Below are positions 43,054-51,703 of a stretch of 64,000 bases of DNA, piece after piece (position 1 is the stretch's first letter; each line of letters opens with the position of its first letter). A program made the position numbers and the translations under genes. The notes beneath the pieces were generated by a model that worked only from the letters and a program-made list of their open reading frames with translations, was not told where the DNA came from and made no database searches. Source of the DNA: Flavobacteriia bacterium 40-80 (GTDB taxonomy: Bacteria > Bacteroidota > Bacteroidia > Flavobacteriales_D > Crocinitomicaceae); NCBI GenBank assembly GCA_001899145.1, contig MKVF01000018.1, positions 248,001 to 312,000 of the forward strand, in the 5' to 3' direction.

Positions 43054-44904
43054 TTACTTAACACCGTGCATCATTTTGACCAGTAGCTTACTTAGTAAAA
43101 ATAAAATGACCGATGATCCTCCGGCTAAATAGACGAATAACCAAAAGAATGATTTCAAATCAGTAATTTTGATACCCAGAAAAGATTTTTCTTTGTTTAT
43201 AGCCATCTTCGCGTATTCGATCTTCTTTTCCTGAATAATCTGGCTATTTTTTTTGATTAAATCCTCGTTTTTTGTCTTTGGAAGTAATCTGTCAAATTTT
43301 ATATCTGAGTACTTGACTTCAGATATATTTCCTTTTTGATCAATGATTTGCGTTGTGTCAGAAAGAGAAGCTGTTTTTGTATCTTCAGCAGTTAAATAAC
43401 ACGTGTACTGATCAGTAGTAAATTGCTTTTCTAGATCTCTGACCTGTTCTCCGGTTAATACAGGATCTGGGTAGAAAGAGCTTAAAAATCCTGCAAAATT
43501 ATTGGCAGCTGCTGTACTCAGAAACCATACTCCCATTAATAAGGAAGCAAATCTGACAGGTGCCAGCTTATTAACCATGGACAAACCGATAGGAGACAAG
43601 AATAATTCACCGATCGTATGAATAAAATAAAGGCCTGTTAACCATATCATTGATACTTTTATTCCTGGTTCAACACCATCAACCCCAAATGCAATGAATA
43701 CATAACCAAGGGCAAGTAAAAACAGACCGTAGGCTTGTTTATAAGGAGAAGCCGGTTCTAAATTTTTCTTTGCTAATTTAGTCCATAATATAGAGATTAA
43801 AGGAGCTAGCAGAACAATAAATACAGCGTTAAAACTGTTGAACCAGCTTGCTGGCATGTGGAAATTGAAAATGACCCTGTTTGTTTGTTCCGCTGCAAAA
43901 AATGTCAGAGAAGCACCTGCTTGTTCAAAAGCTGCCCAGAAGAAAATTACAAAGAAAGCAACTATGTAAATGACTGATATCCTTTGCTTTTCTATTTTAT
44001 TTAATGATTTGTCCGTAATAATTATTAATGGAATAGCTATTGAAACAGCAAAGATAGCTGCTGAAATGTAATTATTGGTAATGTCAATAACTGATTCATC
44101 TGCTGATATAAATACAAAAAAGCGGAAAAAAACCAAAAGAATAATACCAACAAGAATACCGATAAAAACATTTGAATTGCTTTTTTTAGGAGCAACTGTA
44201 TCATTTGGATTCTCCTGTGCTAATCTTTTTTGGTTAGGTTCGACACCGATAGGATTCCCTTCAGGTGTGTTTAATACTTTATTTTTCCTTAATTCGAAAG
44301 TCACAACAGAGATAATCATACCAAGGCAGGCACAAAGGAAACCCCACTTGAATGCGCTTGGAATAACAGCACCGGAAGCATCATATCTTTCTCCTAAATA
44401 TCCACAAAGTAATGGGGCAATGAATGCTCCCAGGTTGATTCCCATGTAAAAAATAGTATAAGCGGCATCTTTACGTTTGTCCGTTTCTGAATATAATTGC
44501 CCTACAAGAGTAGATATATTTGGTTTGAAAAATCCGTTTCCGAAAATTAAGAAGGTTAGCCCGACAATCATTAAAATCATAGCCAAACTATGATTCACAT
44601 AAAATGAGGCGGATAAAAACATGAAAAACTGCCCGATAGCCATCATTATTCCTCCTACAAAAATGGACTTTCGGTTCCCCCAGATATTATCGGCAAAGTA
44701 ACCTCCGATTATAGGTGTAAGGTAAACAAGGCTGGTATATGATCCGTAAATTCCGGAAGCAGTTTTTTTATCAAACATTAATGCATTAACTAAGAATAAT
44801 GTAAATAATGCTCTCATCCCATAATAACTGAAACGTTCCCACATTTCGGTTGTAAATAACAGATACAACCCTTTAGGATGTCCTTTTTGTGTTTCTATAC
44901 TCAT
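43054..44904 (-). CDS. POT-family proton-coupled di/tripeptide transporter, copy 1
   Basis: The 616-residue protein is a PTR2/POT member of the major facilitator superfamily. The first helix carries the ExxERFSYYGMR motif (EMWERFSYYGMR) that couples protons to peptide uptake, and FYMGINLGAFIAPLLCGYLG is the family signature. About 14 helices are expected. Compared with the classical length (about 500), it has a charged insertion of about 100 residues between the last two helices (residues about 478-575), common in Bacteroidota members. It is followed by a hairpin terminator. A paralogue lies 95 nt upstream. Confidence 0.94.
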   Translation of the reverse strand: MSIETQKGHPKGLYLLFTTEMWERFSYYGMRALFTLFLVNALMFDKKTASGIYGSYTSLVYLTPIIGGYFADNIWGNRKSIFVGGIMMAIGQFFMFLSASFYVNHSLAMILMIVGLTFLIFGNGFFKPNISTLVGQLYSETDKRKDAAYTIFYMGINLGAFIAPLLCGYLGERYDASGAVIPSAFKWGFLCACLGMIISVVTFELRKNKVLNTPEGNPIGVEPNQKRLAQENPNDTVAPKKSNSNVFIGILVGIILLVFFRFFVFISADESVIDITNNYISAAIFAVSIAIPLIIITDKSLNKIEKQRISVIYIVAFFVIFFWAAFEQAGASLTFFAAEQTNRVIFNFHMPASWFNSFNAVFIVLLAPLISILWTKLAKKNLEPASPYKQAYGLFLLALGYVFIAFGVDGVEPGIKVSMIWLTGLYFIHTIGELFLSPIGLSMVNKLAPVRFASLLMGVWFLSTAAANNFAGFLSSFYPDPVLTGEQVRDLEKQFTTDQYTCYLTAEDTKTASLSDTTQIIDQKGNISEVKYSDIKFDRLLPKTKNEDLIKKNSQIIQEKKIEYAKMAINKEKSFLGIKITDLKSFFWLFVYLAGGSSVILFLLSKLLVKMMHGVK

Positions 44905-44998
44905 TTTACATCTTTAAATTTAAAAGTTGTGAAATTATAAAAAAATGTAAAAAAAACAACGTCCTGTTATTTTTTAACGAGCTGCAGCCATTAAATTT

Positions 44999-46780
44999 CT
45001 ATTTTATGCCGTGAAGCAGTTTTTTGAGCAACGGATGCAGCAACATGATAATAATGGCCACAACTAAAGGAATGGCGGTGAATAACAAAAAGAAATGGCT
45101 TAATGAATACTCTTCTTTTATAACTTCCACCTGCCCGCCGAGCAAGGCTGCTAATTTTTGAGCTATAGCGATAGCTAAATACCAGATTCCGTACATAAAT
45201 GCCAGCATTCTGGCAGGAACAAGCTTACTGACATAAGACAGGCCGACCGGAGAAATAAAAAGCTCTCCAATGGTGTGTAGGAGATACGTTAAAATTAACC
45301 AGATCATGGAGATTTTCACTCCTTCCCCGATTCCCCATGAGCCGATTCCTAATAACAGGAAGCCGATAGACACAAAAATTAATCCGAAACCATATTTGAA
45401 AGCAACCGGAGGATTGTATTTGGAATCCCATATTTTAGAGATTGTGGATGCCAGCAGGATGATAAAGAACGCATTTAATGTGGAAAACCATGAAACGGTA
45501 ATCTCTGACGCATCTGCGGTAAACTCTTTATGAAGCATCTTGAGCACGGCAGCCCAGATCAGTCCGAAACAGATAAACAGGATTATATTGGAAATACTGA
45601 TCTTTTTCCATGTTATCAGGGCAAGCTTGACCAATACCCATGAGATAATGGATAATGGAACGATAGTCAATAACGCATTTACGATATTGAAAATAACTAA
45701 TGCATTTCCTTCAAGGGAACGGTCAATATAATCCCTTGCTACAATTACCAGAGAAGAAGCTCCCTGTTCGAAGCTCATGAAAAAGAAAAGTAAGGTGACT
45801 GCCAAAATAATAATTGCCAGCATCCTGTCTTTTACAACTTTCCCGTACCGCAGAATTCTGTTGATAATCAGAAAGAAAAATAAGAGAAGTGTGCCGATAA
45901 TCACAATATATTGCCCGCGGAAAACGCTTCCGTCTGATTTTAAAATATCTAAAAATTTAAAGATGTCTTTGTCCGGAAGGTTTCTGGAAATAGGATCATT
46001 GAAGGCATACATCAATCCCAAAATAGAAACGATTACAATTAAAGCAATATCAATTATTTTAAACGGATTTCTGACTTTCTCATCCGGGTGATTGACGTCT
46101 TCTTCTTTTAATTCAACTGTTTTGTCTTCTTTTTTCAGATCACCTATTGTACCAAATAACGGTTTTGCCAACCAAAACTGAATGGTTCCCAGAAGCATAA
46201 AGATTCCTGCTAGGCCAAATCCCCAGTGCCAGCCGAATTTTTCAGCAAAATACCCGCACAACATCATTCCGAAAAATGCGCCGGCATTTACTCCCATATA
46301 AAAAATCGTATAGCCGCCATCTTTTTTCTCCGGAAATTTCTTATACATTTCCCCGAGAATTGCCGGCATATTGGGCTTGAAAAAACCGGTTCCTAAGATC
46401 AGGCAGGCTAATCCGATGAAGAAAGTGATATCATTCTCGATTGCCATGGAAGCATGCCCCAAAGTCATGATGATGGAGCCTATAATCACCGATTTCCATG
46501 ATCCTAACAGCTTGTCGGCAATGACACCTCCGAAAACAGGAGTGATATACAACAGCATTACATACGTTCCGTAAAGAGCAGAAGCAGACTGAACATCCCA
46601 CCCTAAACCTGATTTCGGATTTCCGTGGATGACCGCAGCTGTCAGATACTGGATCAGTAATACGCGCATCCCGTAAAAGGAAAAGCGCTCCCACATTTCT
46701 GTAAAGAAGAGGACAAATAATCCGCTTGGATGCCCTAATAGTTTAGAATCAAAGAAGTTAGAATTCACTGTTGTACTCAT
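44999..46780 (-). CDS. POT-family proton-coupled di/tripeptide transporter, copy 2
   Basis: The 593-residue paralogue has EMWERFSFYGMR in helix 1 and FYMGVNAGAFFGMMLCGYFA. It imports small peptides with protons across the inner membrane, probably from extracellular protein breakdown. It lacks the long C-terminal insertion of copy 1, but has a hydrophilic loop of about 60 residues near the middle. It is co-directional with copy 1 and divergent from tatD. Confidence 0.94.
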   Translation of the reverse strand: MSTTVNSNFFDSKLLGHPSGLFVLFFTEMWERFSFYGMRVLLIQYLTAAVIHGNPKSGLGWDVQSASALYGTYVMLLYITPVFGGVIADKLLGSWKSVIIGSIIMTLGHASMAIENDITFFIGLACLILGTGFFKPNMPAILGEMYKKFPEKKDGGYTIFYMGVNAGAFFGMMLCGYFAEKFGWHWGFGLAGIFMLLGTIQFWLAKPLFGTIGDLKKEDKTVELKEEDVNHPDEKVRNPFKIIDIALIVIVSILGLMYAFNDPISRNLPDKDIFKFLDILKSDGSVFRGQYIVIIGTLLLFFFLIINRILRYGKVVKDRMLAIIILAVTLLFFFMSFEQGASSLVIVARDYIDRSLEGNALVIFNIVNALLTIVPLSIISWVLVKLALITWKKISISNIILFICFGLIWAAVLKMLHKEFTADASEITVSWFSTLNAFFIILLASTISKIWDSKYNPPVAFKYGFGLIFVSIGFLLLGIGSWGIGEGVKISMIWLILTYLLHTIGELFISPVGLSYVSKLVPARMLAFMYGIWYLAIAIAQKLAALLGGQVEVIKEEYSLSHFFLLFTAIPLVVAIIIMLLHPLLKKLLHGIK

Positions 46781-48352: not shown

Positions 48353-49168
48353 ATGTCAGTACATAAAGAAGTAAAAAGAGTGACAACCAACGTCCTGAAG
48401 GAGATGAAAGCAGCAGGAGCAAAAATTTCCATGCTGACGGGATATGATTTTTCAATGGCAAAGATTATTGATGATGCCGGTATTGATATTATCCTGGTAG
48501 GAGATTCAGCATCTAATGTCATGGCTGGCCATGAAACTACTTTGCCGATTACCTTAGACCAGATGATTTACCATGCTTCTTCGGTGGTTCGCGGAGCGAA
48601 AAGAGCGCTGGTTGTTGTAGATATGCCTTTCGGATCTTATCAGGGAAACTCTAAAGAAGCGCTTTCCAACGCGATCCGGATTATGAAGGAATCGGGTGGA
48701 CACGGTGTTAAATTAGAAGGCGGCTCGGAGATCATTGAATCCATAAAAAGAATCCTGACAGCCGGAATTCCTGTAATGGGACATCTGGGACTGACTCCGC
48801 AGTCGATCTATAAATTCGGAACATACGTAGTCCGGGCGAAAGAAGAAGAAGAAGCGATCCGGTTGATTGAAGATGCGAAAGCATTGGAAGAAGCCGGTTG
48901 TTTTGCGATTGTTCTTGAAAAAATCCCTGCAAAACTGGCTAAAAAAGTAGCGGAAAGTGTTTCTATTCCGATCATAGGGATCGGTGCGGGAGGACATGTG
49001 GATGGACAAGTATTGGTGATTCACGATATGCTGGGAATCAATAATGAATTTAATCCGAGATTTCTGAGGAAATACAATAACTTGTACGAACAGATGAAAT
49101 CCTCTATTGAAAAATATGTGGAGGATGTACGAAGAGGAGATTTCCCGAATGAAAAAGAATCTTATTGA
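48353..49168 (+). CDS. panB: 3-methyl-2-oxobutanoate hydroxymethyltransferase
   Basis: The 271-residue protein is full length for PanB, the first step of pantothenate and hence CoA synthesis: a hydroxymethyl group from 5,10-methylene-THF is added to 2-oxoisovalerate. Family landmarks are [54 protein letters not shown] and GHLGLTPQS. The decameric TIM-barrel enzyme is cytosolic. It precedes the cyclase-HD gene by 16 nt with no metabolic link seen. Confidence 0.96.
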
Positions 49169-49184
49169 TAGAAGATATTAATCT

Positions 49185-50897
49185 TTGGAACACTTTGTAA
49201 ACATACTTTTCGTAAGTCGGCAGACAGCTCTTTTTCGCGAGTTTAAGCTTGCTTTCAAAAGTGTTGGCACGAATCTTATTCAGGTGGAAGATGAAGCAGA
49301 AGCAAAACGTGTTTTAGAGAAAAAAACAATCGGAATTCAGATCCTGGATTGCTCGCAGGGAGAATTTTGTTCCGCACCTGCTGTTTCGGGACTGATCAGA
49401 AACAGTAAGAATGCAGAAGTATTTACCCTGTTGATGGCCGATGCACCACAAGCGCTCGCACCTCTTGTTTTTTCAGTAAAAGAAGGGATTTGTGATATTC
49501 TTCCATTGCCCTTTGATCCTGTTAGTCTGAACGTTAAGATAGAAGTGTACAAACGTATGTTTTTCGACGTGCAGCGTGTAACATCTCTTATGGCGAATGT
49601 ATTTCCGGAAACAGTAATCGAAGATTTTCGCAGAAATGGAAAAGTAGAACCGAAACGCTACAAAAATGCTGTAATTCTTTTTACTGATTTTGTGGGATTT
49701 TCATCTAAATCTGCAGATTTACAACCGATGGAGCTGATTCGTCAACTTGAAAAATACTTTTCAAGATTTGATGATATCTGCGAGCGCTACCGGTTAGAAA
49801 AGATCAAAACAGTCGGAGATGCTTATATGGCAATTGCCGGAGTTACGGAAGATCTTCCGTCTCCTGAGATTCGTGCCTGCCTGGCTGCGAATGAAATTAT
49901 TAGCTTTGTGGAAACAGAATTTGCTTTGGAAAAAGCCCAGGGCAAGGATGGCTGGCAGATCCGGATTGGTATCAATGCCGGAAGCCTGGTAGGAGGTATC
50001 GTTGGAAGGAAAAAGCTGATATATGATGTTTGGGGAGATGCAGTCAATATAGCAGCAAGGGCAGAACAAACTTCCTCCGAAGGGAAAATTCTGATTACAC
50101 AACGAATTTATGATAAAGTTGCCCCTTATTTCTCAACGACTTTCTTTGACGAAGTTGAAATAAAGAAAAGGGGAGGGCGGTTGAATATGTATTTTTTGAG
50201 CTGGCTTAAACCGGAATTTTGTAATGATAACTGGGGAATCTCTCCTAATTTACAGGTGATGGATGAATGCGGATTACCTGCCATGGATTTTTACAGGATG
50301 CGCCGGAATATTTTACAAATGCTGAAATGCTTTTTACCTGATACAATGTGTTATCACACAATTGACCATACTTTGAAAATGGACGAAACCGTGAAGCGGT
50401 ACGCACGCCTGGAAGCATTGTCACAACGTGAGATTTTGCTGCTGCGTACGGCTGCTTTGTATCACGATGTGGGGTTTATTGTTGAATACGAGAACAATGA
50501 GCAATTTGCAGTAATGCTGGCAAAGAATAACCTGCCGCAATACGGTTATTCAAGTGAAGATATAGAGAAGGTGTGTGAGCTGATTTGGGCGACAGCACGT
50601 TTTGAAACACCTAAAAACCTGCTGGAGCAATTAATGTGTGATGCCGATTCGGATTATCTGGGAAGAAGCGATTACCATTTGATCGCCGACAAGCTTCGGA
50701 AAGAGCTGGCACTTTACCTGCTTCGTATGACAGACGAACAATGGCTGGATTACCAGATTGATTATCTGGAGTATAAGCACCGTTATTATAGTGACCTGGT
50801 TAAAAATATCCGTGAAAAAGGGAAATCCCTGCGGATTGAAGAGCTGAAAGAAAAACGCCTTTGGCTGATTGATAGTGAAGCCTCCGGTCAACAGTAA
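49185..50897 (+). CDS. Receiver-like / class III adenylate cyclase / HD-domain fusion protein
   Basis: The 570-residue protein combines three modules. Residues 1-125 look like a response-regulator receiver: Asp54 is in the phospho-site position, but the acidic pair after strand 1 is replaced (LFVSRQ) and the conserved Lys of KPF is Leu108, so phosphorylation is doubtful. Residues 160-340 are a class III cyclase with metal ligands Asp168 (FTDF) and Asp212 (VGDAY), adenine-selecting Lys208 and Asp281 (YDVWGD), and transition-state Asn288 and Arg292, so cAMP synthesis is predicted. Residues 385-500 carry HD-type motifs: HTIDH (391-395), LYHD (425-428) and CDADSD (485-490). It starts with TTG at 49185, 16 nt after panB; no in-frame ATG is closer to the receiver start. 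Confidence 0.85.
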   Translation: MEHFVNILFVSRQTALFREFKLAFKSVGTNLIQVEDEAEAKRVLEKKTIGIQILDCSQGEFCSAPAVSGLIRNSKNAEVFTLLMADAPQALAPLVFSVKEGICDILPLPFDPVSLNVKIEVYKRMFFDVQRVTSLMANVFPETVIEDFRRNGKVEPKRYKNAVILFTDFVGFSSKSADLQPMELIRQLEKYFSRFDDICERYRLEKIKTVGDAYMAIAGVTEDLPSPEIRACLAANEIISFVETEFALEKAQGKDGWQIRIGINAGSLVGGIVGRKKLIYDVWGDAVNIAARAEQTSSEGKILITQRIYDKVAPYFSTTFFDEVEIKKRGGRLNMYFLSWLKPEFCNDNWGISPNLQVMDECGLPAMDFYRMRRNILQMLKCFLPDTMCYHTIDHTLKMDETVKRYARLEALSQREILLLRTAALYHDVGFIVEYENNEQFAVMLAKNNLPQYGYSSEDIEKVCELIWATARFETPKNLLEQLMCDADSDYLGRSDYHLIADKLRKELALYLLRMTDEQWLDYQIDYLEYKHRYYSDLVKNIREKGKSLRIEELKEKRLWLIDSEASGQQ

Positions 50898-50964: not shown

Positions 50965-51642
50965 CTAACTTCCTTCCGAGGCGAACAAGAATTTATTAGG
51001 ACTGACAATATTCATTTTTACGGCATACATAACAATCCCTGCTGTATTTTTCACACCGAGTTTGGACATGATATTCTTGCGGTGCGTATTAACAGTATGA
51101 TTGCTTAAGAACAGTTGCTCCGCAATTTGGATATTGGTAAGACCTTCTGCGATCATTTTGATTATTTCATTTTCCCGTTCAGATAAGCTTACAGGCTCGC
51201 AGGAGAATACATCACTGTCCAGATCTTCGATGTTGATATTCGCTTTTTGAATGGTTTCAAGGATTTTGCCACAGAAAAAATTGTTCCCTTTTCCGGTTTC
51301 TATGATTGCATCCATTATTTCCGTAACAGAGCAATCTTTTTTCACATAGCTTTTTACGCCTGATTTCAGGGCGTTTATCAATGTGGTGGCCGATTGTTCG
51401 GGAGTGATGGCAATTACATTGATATCAGGCCTTTTCTGAATGATTTTCGGAACAATATCAATAGAGAAGCCGTCAGAAGTGTAATCAATAATCACTTCAT
51501 CAATGGGTGTGTTTTCGCACATAAGCCATAGATCATGAGATGAAACAGCCTCACCGATAATCTCGATCTCGGGATAATTTTCTAAAACGGACCGAAGACC
51601 AATTCTGATTAATTCATTACTGTCTGCTAAAACGACTTTCAT
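50965..51642 (-). CDS. NarL/FixJ-type response regulator
   Basis: The 225-residue protein has an N-terminal receiver domain (VVLADSNELIRIGL; phospho-acceptor Asp53 in IIDYTS; Lys near residue 106) and a C-terminal LuxR-type helix-turn-helix (LSERENEIIKMIAEGL and LFLSNHTVNTHRKNIMSKL). The acidic pocket has one Asp (Asp7) where most receivers have two. I prefer ATG at 51642 (MKVVLADSN) over 51660. No sensor kinase is adjacent. It converges on the cyclase gene. Confidence 0.9.
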   Translation of the reverse strand: MKVVLADSNELIRIGLRSVLENYPEIEIIGEAVSSHDLWLMCENTPIDEVIIDYTSDGFSIDIVPKIIQKRPDINVIAITPEQSATTLINALKSGVKSYVKKDCSVTEIMDAIIETGKGNNFFCGKILETIQKANINIEDLDSDVFSCEPVSLSERENEIIKMIAEGLTNIQIAEQLFLSNHTVNTHRKNIMSKLGVKNTAGIVMYAVKMNIVSPNKFLFASEGS

Positions 51643-51703
51643 ATTTTTTGCAATAAGCAAATATAAAAAGGATGATCCGGATTATCTAAGATAATAAAAT
51701 AAA

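Follow-up and report, generated by a model that had tools for sequence, protein, structure and literature searches.

The nearest precedent that we found for the protein described here comes from plants. CAPE (COMBINED AC with PDE), present in Marchantia and other streptophytes, unites a class III adenylyl cyclase and a class I phosphodiesterase in one chain; both activities are reported (PMC5159850 and PMC8115329), and the former paper reports hydrolysis of cAMP as well as cGMP by the phosphodiesterase part. CAPE is a eukaryotic protein, with a recognised class I phosphodiesterase at its N-terminus and the cyclase at its C-terminus, whereas our protein, from Flavobacteriia bacterium 40-80, has the opposite order, carries a receiver in front, and ends in a compact HD domain of 200 aa that PDEase_I leaves unmatched. 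Among bacterial enzymes, class III adenylate cyclases such as Rv1625c/Cya (soluble domain 5o5k) resemble it in cyclase fold and residues at about 30% identity; compared with these, it adds the receiver in front and the HD domain behind.

A second bacterial comparison is with Pycsar, for which background is given in PMC11224242. The PADLOC profile for the Pycsar cyclase, PycC, does match the cyclase domain of our protein (best E 2e-14). Nonetheless, we rejected an identity with Pycsar: the match is limited to the cyclase domain, the genome yields no match to the PycTM effector domain (PF18967), and the neighbours of the gene are panB and a LuxR-type regulator.

The available text of the 2005 signalling census (PMC1183210), and that of PMC3710099 and PMC8195603, does not describe the present fusion. 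More broadly, within the open-licence literature, a scope outside which most subscription papers fall, we found no account of a comparable fusion of cyclase and HD domain in bacteria, nor of how Bacteroidota remove cAMP, though 85 of 149 sampled Bacteroidia genomes carry class III cyclases. Overall, we believe the protein is best explained as a soluble adenylate cyclase with a cyclic-nucleotide phosphodiesterase built into the same chain, a reading that predicted fold, conserved residues and distribution across genomes together make somewhat probable, and one that we weigh below against three others.

The gene and its three domains

In the window, by which we mean the whole 64,000-nucleotide stretch that was analysed, an open and intact reading frame at 49185-50897 (+) encodes three domains, which are, from the N-terminus onwards, a receiver fold, a cyclase of class III and an HD domain. 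The TTG start is supported because the translation opens with an xE(R/H/K)F-like motif that is conserved, Glu2 being present in 21 of 22 aligned proteins, our own included. The locus is laid out as follows.

48353..49168 (+): panB (ketopantoate hydroxymethyltransferase), ending 16 nt upstream of the cyclase-HD gene
49185..50897 (+): receiver-like / class III cyclase / HD gene, 570 aa, TTG start backed by ortholog alignment
49185..49556 (+): degenerate receiver (REC), residues 1-124, with S11 R12 where an acidic pair would stand, D55 as acceptor residue, A85, and L108 for Lys
49518..49640 (+): long helix (112-139) and next helix (142-151) of the receiver-cyclase linker, from the predicted structure
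49647..50201 (+): class III (adenylate-type) cyclase, residues 155-339, with D168, K208, D212, D281, N288 and R292
50277..50894 (+): HD domain of predicted phosphodiesterase-like fold, residues 365-570, with H391, H395, H427, D428, E439, T470, D488 and Q524
50965..51660 (-): LuxR-type response regulator, convergent with the cyclase-HD gene, at most a candidate member of the system

A conserved operon with panB was considered and rejected, since panB is the neighbour in just 4 of the 27 loci examined (L001, L003, L004 and L053). Elsewhere in the window, at 43054-46780 (-), two adjoining long open reading frames of 616 and 593 aa resemble membrane transporters and one another, and are apparently tandem paralogs.

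The same layout occurs in 21 further proteins, in which both sites retain their metal ligands. Together with the window protein, these make up the 22-protein alignment used throughout; within it, L026 belongs to another family and L031 carries a deletion. L003-L021 share 39-46% identity with the window protein over nearly the full length. Among the nearest named relatives that share the whole layout are Fluviicola sp. NORP8 (L054) and further MAGs of the Flavobacteriales; related proteins are also present in Crocinitomicaceae MAGs. A first homolog scan, made with single-sequence patterns, found no homologs.

The cyclase domain has a Pfam Guanylate_cyc match at 155-339 (E 4e-41, 140.9 bits against a cut-off of 21.9). 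The first-pass annotation of this DNA, made from the letters alone, had named six expected catalytic residues (Asp168, Asp212, Lys208, Asp281, Asn288 and Arg292), and these positions proved right and conserved: D168, K208, D212, D281 and N288 are identical in all 22 proteins, and R292 in 21. A Lys/Asp pair of the K208/D281 type is adenine-selecting in class III cyclases and predicts ATP as substrate; in the comparison with PycC, too, we take K208 and D281 to be of the adenine type. The residues thus suggest that the cyclase domain, probably as a homodimer, would make cAMP from ATP.

In the N-terminal domain of the window protein, Response_reg (PF00072) gives no match at E <= 1, while 18 of the 31 members of a wider alignment (A1), of which 19 contain all of the N-terminal part and another contains some of it, match at E <= 0.01. 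AlphaFold2, given an alignment of the window protein with 58 named relatives, 5 of them spanning the receiver, predicts a (beta-alpha)5 fold, from which a long helix, residues 112-139, runs into the cyclase (mean pLDDT 90.1). The structure matches listed for this full model are cyclases only and are silent on the receiver. By predicted fold and by homology, then, the N-terminal domain of the window protein is a response-regulator receiver.

This receiver has an incomplete set of phosphorylation residues (acidic pair, Asp, Thr/Ser, Lys), with S11 and R12, D55, A85 and L108 in their places. The absence of the acidic pair and of the Lys had been noticed in the first-pass annotation and is borne out; that the acceptor Asp is retained, as D55, had gone unmentioned there. 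Across the 22 proteins the acceptor position holds Asn in 15, Asp in 5 and Ser in 2, and the Lys at 108 is kept in 11. The complete set (D, E; D; T; K) survives in one of the 22, L015, while L026 has the acidic pair, the Asp and the Lys, with Leu at the Thr position. We therefore rejected phosphorylation for the window protein and, with the acceptor Asp in 5 of 22, as a general mechanism, the complete set of L015 and near-complete set of L026 being the contrary cases. Thus the earlier proposal of a receiver that works independently of phosphorylation is supported for the window protein and most of its relatives, but does not extend to L015. The distribution of residues suggests an ancestral phospho-receiver that has decayed, fully in the window protein and less so in some relatives. 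In the window protein the fold would no longer serve as a phospho-switch, and would most likely act through dimerisation or partner binding by way of helix 112-139.

Fold and residues of the HD domain

The first-pass annotation had also read an HD-type domain from HTIDH and further motifs. Pfam agrees, placing HD (PF01966) at 392-489 above its cut-off (E 2e-6, 28.7 bits against 22), and the metal ligands are complete. H391, H395, H427, D428, E439, T470, D486, D488 and D490 are identical in all 22 aligned proteins. In a larger set of 167 HD sequences, either fused to a cyclase or standalone, H391 and D486 occur in every one, H395, H427, D428, E439, T470 and D488 in 98-99%, and Gln at position 524 in 162. 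The ligands are kept among homologues, which favours the first-pass reading of the domain. Overall, its three-domain account and the conservation of both active sites stand, while its statements on activity and substrate stay at the level of prediction.

The predicted structure of the HD domain modelled by itself (pLDDT 96.6) has the fold of the class I phosphodiesterase catalytic domain. VIA-align 2 was run on the 1000 best Foldseek matches, and among its best 50 entries all are cyclic-nucleotide phosphodiesterases, including 5vp0, which we take to be one although its title does not say so. PDE10A (4dff_B) comes first, with Z 18.1 and 2.6 A over 192 of 206 residues, and the 50 also include PDE7A, a rhodopsin phosphodiesterase (RhoPDE) and PDE6C, at Z 17-18 over about 190 residues. 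YpgQ, YedJ and 2pq7 are absent among these best 50, hence there is no comparable Z for hydrolases of the YpgQ type. Foldseek itself gives another order, with 2pq7 and YpgQ (one of them with ADP) first at E ~4e-4, and PDE5A, PDE2A and GppA following from E 0.01.

A profile search of the PDB returns bacterial HD hydrolases first (2pq7, YedJ, BH2835 and, lower, YpgQ), with phosphodiesterases of trypanosomes and humans behind them (E 0.013-0.1), and single-sequence PDB searches with L211 and L037 returned no phosphodiesterase among their matches. The class I phosphodiesterase family, PDEase_I (PF00233), gives matches at E <= 0.1 for 26 of the 63 HD members (lowest E 2e-4), all of them under the curated cut-off where a score is shown; it has no match in the HD domain of the window protein or in any of the five other HD proteins of its genome (one scanned in part), and in none of the 198 genomes of the phylum sample, which we take to be Bacteroidota as we take the class sample to be Bacteroidia, does a match reach the curated cut-off. 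Ppx-GppA_III, for its part, gives weak matches in 18 of the 63 members.

When the 63-row HD profile is aligned to PDE4D with hhalign, the match is weak (P 0.0018, probability 15%), yet it sets H391 and H395 on HNxxH, H427 and D428 on HD, T470 on the Thr of LATD, D488 on the Asp of CADLS and Q524 on the Gln of SQVGF, the last presumably the base-reading residue. The default alignment covers only the stretch around Q524, the other residues appearing when a longer alignment is forced, and the global mode produced no useful alignment; E439 was paired with a PDE4D Glu by motif only. Compared with the eukaryotic class I phosphodiesterases, then, the window HD domain is alike in predicted fold and, on a weak alignment, in catalytic residues, perhaps including the Gln, but identity is about 14%, there is no PDEase_I match, and the PDE4D fragment used for comparison is longer by over 100 residues. 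The class I signature HNxxH...HDxxH is also incomplete, as the window protein has HTIDH followed by HDVGF (HDxGF) and the second His is missing.

With YpgQ, YedJ and 2pq7 the domain shares the HD superfamily core and profile similarity, and this suggests another reading, in which the HD domain does work as a hydrolase but on some other nucleotide, as either an NTP/dNTP pyrophosphohydrolase like YpgQ or an enzyme related to (p)ppGpp or polyphosphate, so that cyclase output would be coupled to nucleotide state. The ranking of bacterial HD hydrolases above phosphodiesterases by both Foldseek and the profile search speaks for it and against the phosphodiesterase reading, as do, for this rival, the Ppx-GppA_III matches, a fusion to polyphosphate kinase in L218 and an overlapping polyphosphate-kinase-like gene in L214. 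At the same time, T470 and Q524 agree, in the weak PDE4D alignment, with the class I phosphodiesterases, whereas the profile-search alignments show His in place of T470 in both 2pq7 and YedJ; VIA-align puts phosphodiesterases at the top of its best 50; and the HD family follows cyclases genome by genome, as described below. We consider this alternative unlikely. PMC8431786 reports a Brachypodium HD protein, modelled on BH2835 (3DTO), that acts as a cAMP phosphodiesterase and loses activity by a factor of about four when H/D residues are mutated.

Returning to the preferred reading, a cyclase with its own phosphodiesterase, the C-terminal HD domain would hydrolyse a 3',5'-cyclic purine nucleotide to the 5'-monophosphate, by chemistry like that of the class I phosphodiesterases, with a two-metal site, H391 as general acid and Q524 reading the base. 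The net effect might be a local, self-limiting cAMP signal, or else a switch whose sign is set by whichever active site the receiver favours.

The HD family and cyclases across genomes

Related cyclase-HD pairings are widespread in Bacteroidota. The window genome has two class III cyclases (PF00211), and both are HD-fused, the second being a protein of 1292 aa with Reg_prop and Y_Y_Y repeats ahead of the cyclase. In an even sample of 149 Bacteroidia genomes, 85 have both a cyclase and a member of the HD family, 6 the HD only, none a cyclase only and 58 neither (Fisher 6e-35, in a test that ignores phylogeny and with fused genes counted for both cyclase and HD). The HD family is thus in all 85 cyclase-bearing genomes and in 6 of the 64 without a cyclase, six genomes with weak HD matches (G068, G097, G119, G134, G172 and G194) having been scored HD-negative. 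Three of the six HD-only genomes (G078, G136 and G157) carry the HD as a PycTM fusion. The 38 cyclase genomes without an HD frame of fusion length, as judged by hand from frame length and with the 47 others set aside, all have an HD, as a separate gene or a fusion of PycTM size.

A cyclase lies no more than about 6 kb from 9 of 48 standalone HD genes, against an expectation of 0.79 (Poisson 1.6e-7), and the other 39 have none so near; the 48 were taken from 52 standalone-size hits (>= ~98 bits), leaving out those of G043 and G072, one of G136 and one of G180. An HD gene lies directly beside a cyclase gene in loci that include L072, L078 (Taibaiella koreensis), L125/L163 (one contig, judging by its length), L164, L174, L122, L221 and L222, with -20 to 59 nt between the open frames, and in L219 and L220 the domains are fused in reversed order, HD-membrane-cyclase. 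The family is therefore found fused behind the cyclase, fused ahead of it, and as the next gene. In an HD tree of 186 rows (FastTree), the cyclase-HD label changes 7 times, but the starred branches force only 1 change, and so the tree does not show several origins of the fusion; a second fusion is better indicated by the reversed arrangement of the domains.

Two of these loci recall the window gene in split form. In L221:3156-5670 (-) and L222:3273-5840 (+), a receiver-cyclase gene is directly followed by an HD fused to a YitT-type membrane protein, and the receiver-cyclase gene of L221 is confirmed by Pfam, with a strong Response_reg match.

A sceptical reading of these patterns would be that fusion brings shared regulation and nothing more, the HD and cyclase substrates being unrelated and their co-occurrence a product of lineage and genome size. 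The blindness of the co-occurrence statistic to phylogeny is in keeping with this, as is the purely local synteny with panB. However, seven families in the sample each hold both a cyclase+HD genome and a genome scored as having neither, the latter lacking any HD match in f15, f32 and f47 and showing a weak one (26-49 bits) in the other four; HD-cyclase adjacency is in excess; and the domains are fused in two opposite orders. We regard this reading as very improbable. The hint in the first-pass annotation that the protein might both make and destroy its signal gains strength instead, through the predicted resemblance to class I phosphodiesterases, the co-occurrence with cyclases and the repeated fusion and adjacency.

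How cAMP might be read and removed in this organism can also be considered at the level of the genome. Six proteins with a cNMP_binding domain are encoded, and these are possible readers of cAMP. Of the phosphodiesterase families for which the genome was searched, CpdA and PF00233, CpdA (NF008359, class III phosphodiesterase) has nothing over its cut-off, the best score being 19.8 bits against 225. Because a phosphodiesterase-like domain lies in the same chain as the cyclase, and no CpdA stands over the cut-off, the simplest model is that the local cAMP level would be set by synthesis and breakdown together, the receiver providing an input that does not depend on phosphorylation.

A more general proposal, which we offer tentatively and hold to be plausible but somewhat short of probable, is that Bacteroidota have a compact and as yet unnamed phosphodiesterase family, a relative of the eukaryotic class I enzymes, that serves as the standard off-switch of class III cyclases; that it has been fused to a cyclase more than once, giving single chains that make and destroy cAMP; and that residue 524 tunes the base that is read, with Gln alongside cyclases and mostly Asn, Glu or Asp alongside PycTM. 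If the HD domain is a phosphodiesterase, it would supply the missing half of the cAMP pathway in Bacteroidota, offer an assayable bacterial relative of eukaryotic drug-target enzymes, and represent a bacterial counterpart, with the opposite domain order, of the plant enzyme that makes and breaks cAMP.

The two active sites and other fusion partners

Loss and retention of the two sites bear on a further alternative. Completeness was judged from D168 and D212 for the cyclase and from eight residues for the HD domain, in 98 cyclase-HD proteins that leave out duplicate loci of the window genome's two genes (L002, L038, L039, L050 and L052). Both sites are complete in 76; 15 have an intact HD but a changed or unaligned metal position in the cyclase; in 7 the HD is damaged and the cyclase intact; and in none are both damaged. 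One of the 15, L031, was scored as damaged for a gap beside D168, where it has a deletion with the Asp nonetheless visible in alignment A1, which leaves 14 with a lost metal residue. Four of the seven damaged HD domains, in second genes of L083, L093, L099 and L112, are degenerate over the first part, which is the part that can be read before the stretch ends within the HD.

A regulatory role, in which the HD domain senses a nucleotide (cAMP, perhaps) and governs the cyclase by binding it without hydrolysis, would suit the domain's position C-terminal to the cyclase, as well as the 7 of 98 proteins in which HD residues are lost and the cyclase intact (four of these read over the first HD part only). 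A domain that served purely to sense for the cyclase attached to it would not predict that the metal ligands and general-acid His should be nearly invariant, that standalone copies should exist (56 of 186 tree rows), or that the HD should outlast the cyclase, as it does in the 15 proteins with cyclase damage; we think a sensor role distinctly improbable. The same 15 fusions indicate that the HD is not always paired with an active cyclase in the same chain, a point that applies equally to the preferred reading of the domain as a phosphodiesterase. In L028, L029, L032 and L033 (about 461-488 aa), the first cyclase metal Asp is lost and the HD complete, and these are probably, from their residues, pseudo-cyclases with an active HD. 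The loci L083, L093, L099 and L112, from Bacteroidales MAGs, each have an intact cyclase-HD gene and, about 3 kb on, a second cyclase with an apparent degenerate HD remnant; in L083 the second cyclase has a Y_Y_Y domain.

The HD family is also paired with PycTM, with YitT-type membrane proteins and with polyphosphate kinase, and not every member need therefore be a cAMP phosphodiesterase. Fusions in which the HD lies ahead of PycTM (PF18967) number 14 non-redundant proteins, with frames of 400-468 aa (L211-L217, L228-L230, L233, L235, L240 and L249). Residue 524 in these is N in 8, Q in 3, E in 2 and D in 1. An early set, in which 7 of 7 HD-PycTM proteins were without Gln, had suggested a clean switch of base specificity at this position; with Gln in 3 of the larger set of 14, and with positions 410, 490, 491 and 543 varying equally, a clean switch was rejected, and a part for 524 in base specificity is best treated as a hypothesis.

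As for the remaining partners, L218:4296-6995 (+) encodes an HD fused to polyphosphate kinase, and at L214:4033-7370 (+) the HD-PycTM gene overlaps the next gene, which looks polyphosphate-kinase-like. Finally, at G175:C63:11773-13020 a standalone PycTM frame lies beside a class III cyclase, the arrangement that a Pycsar pair would have.
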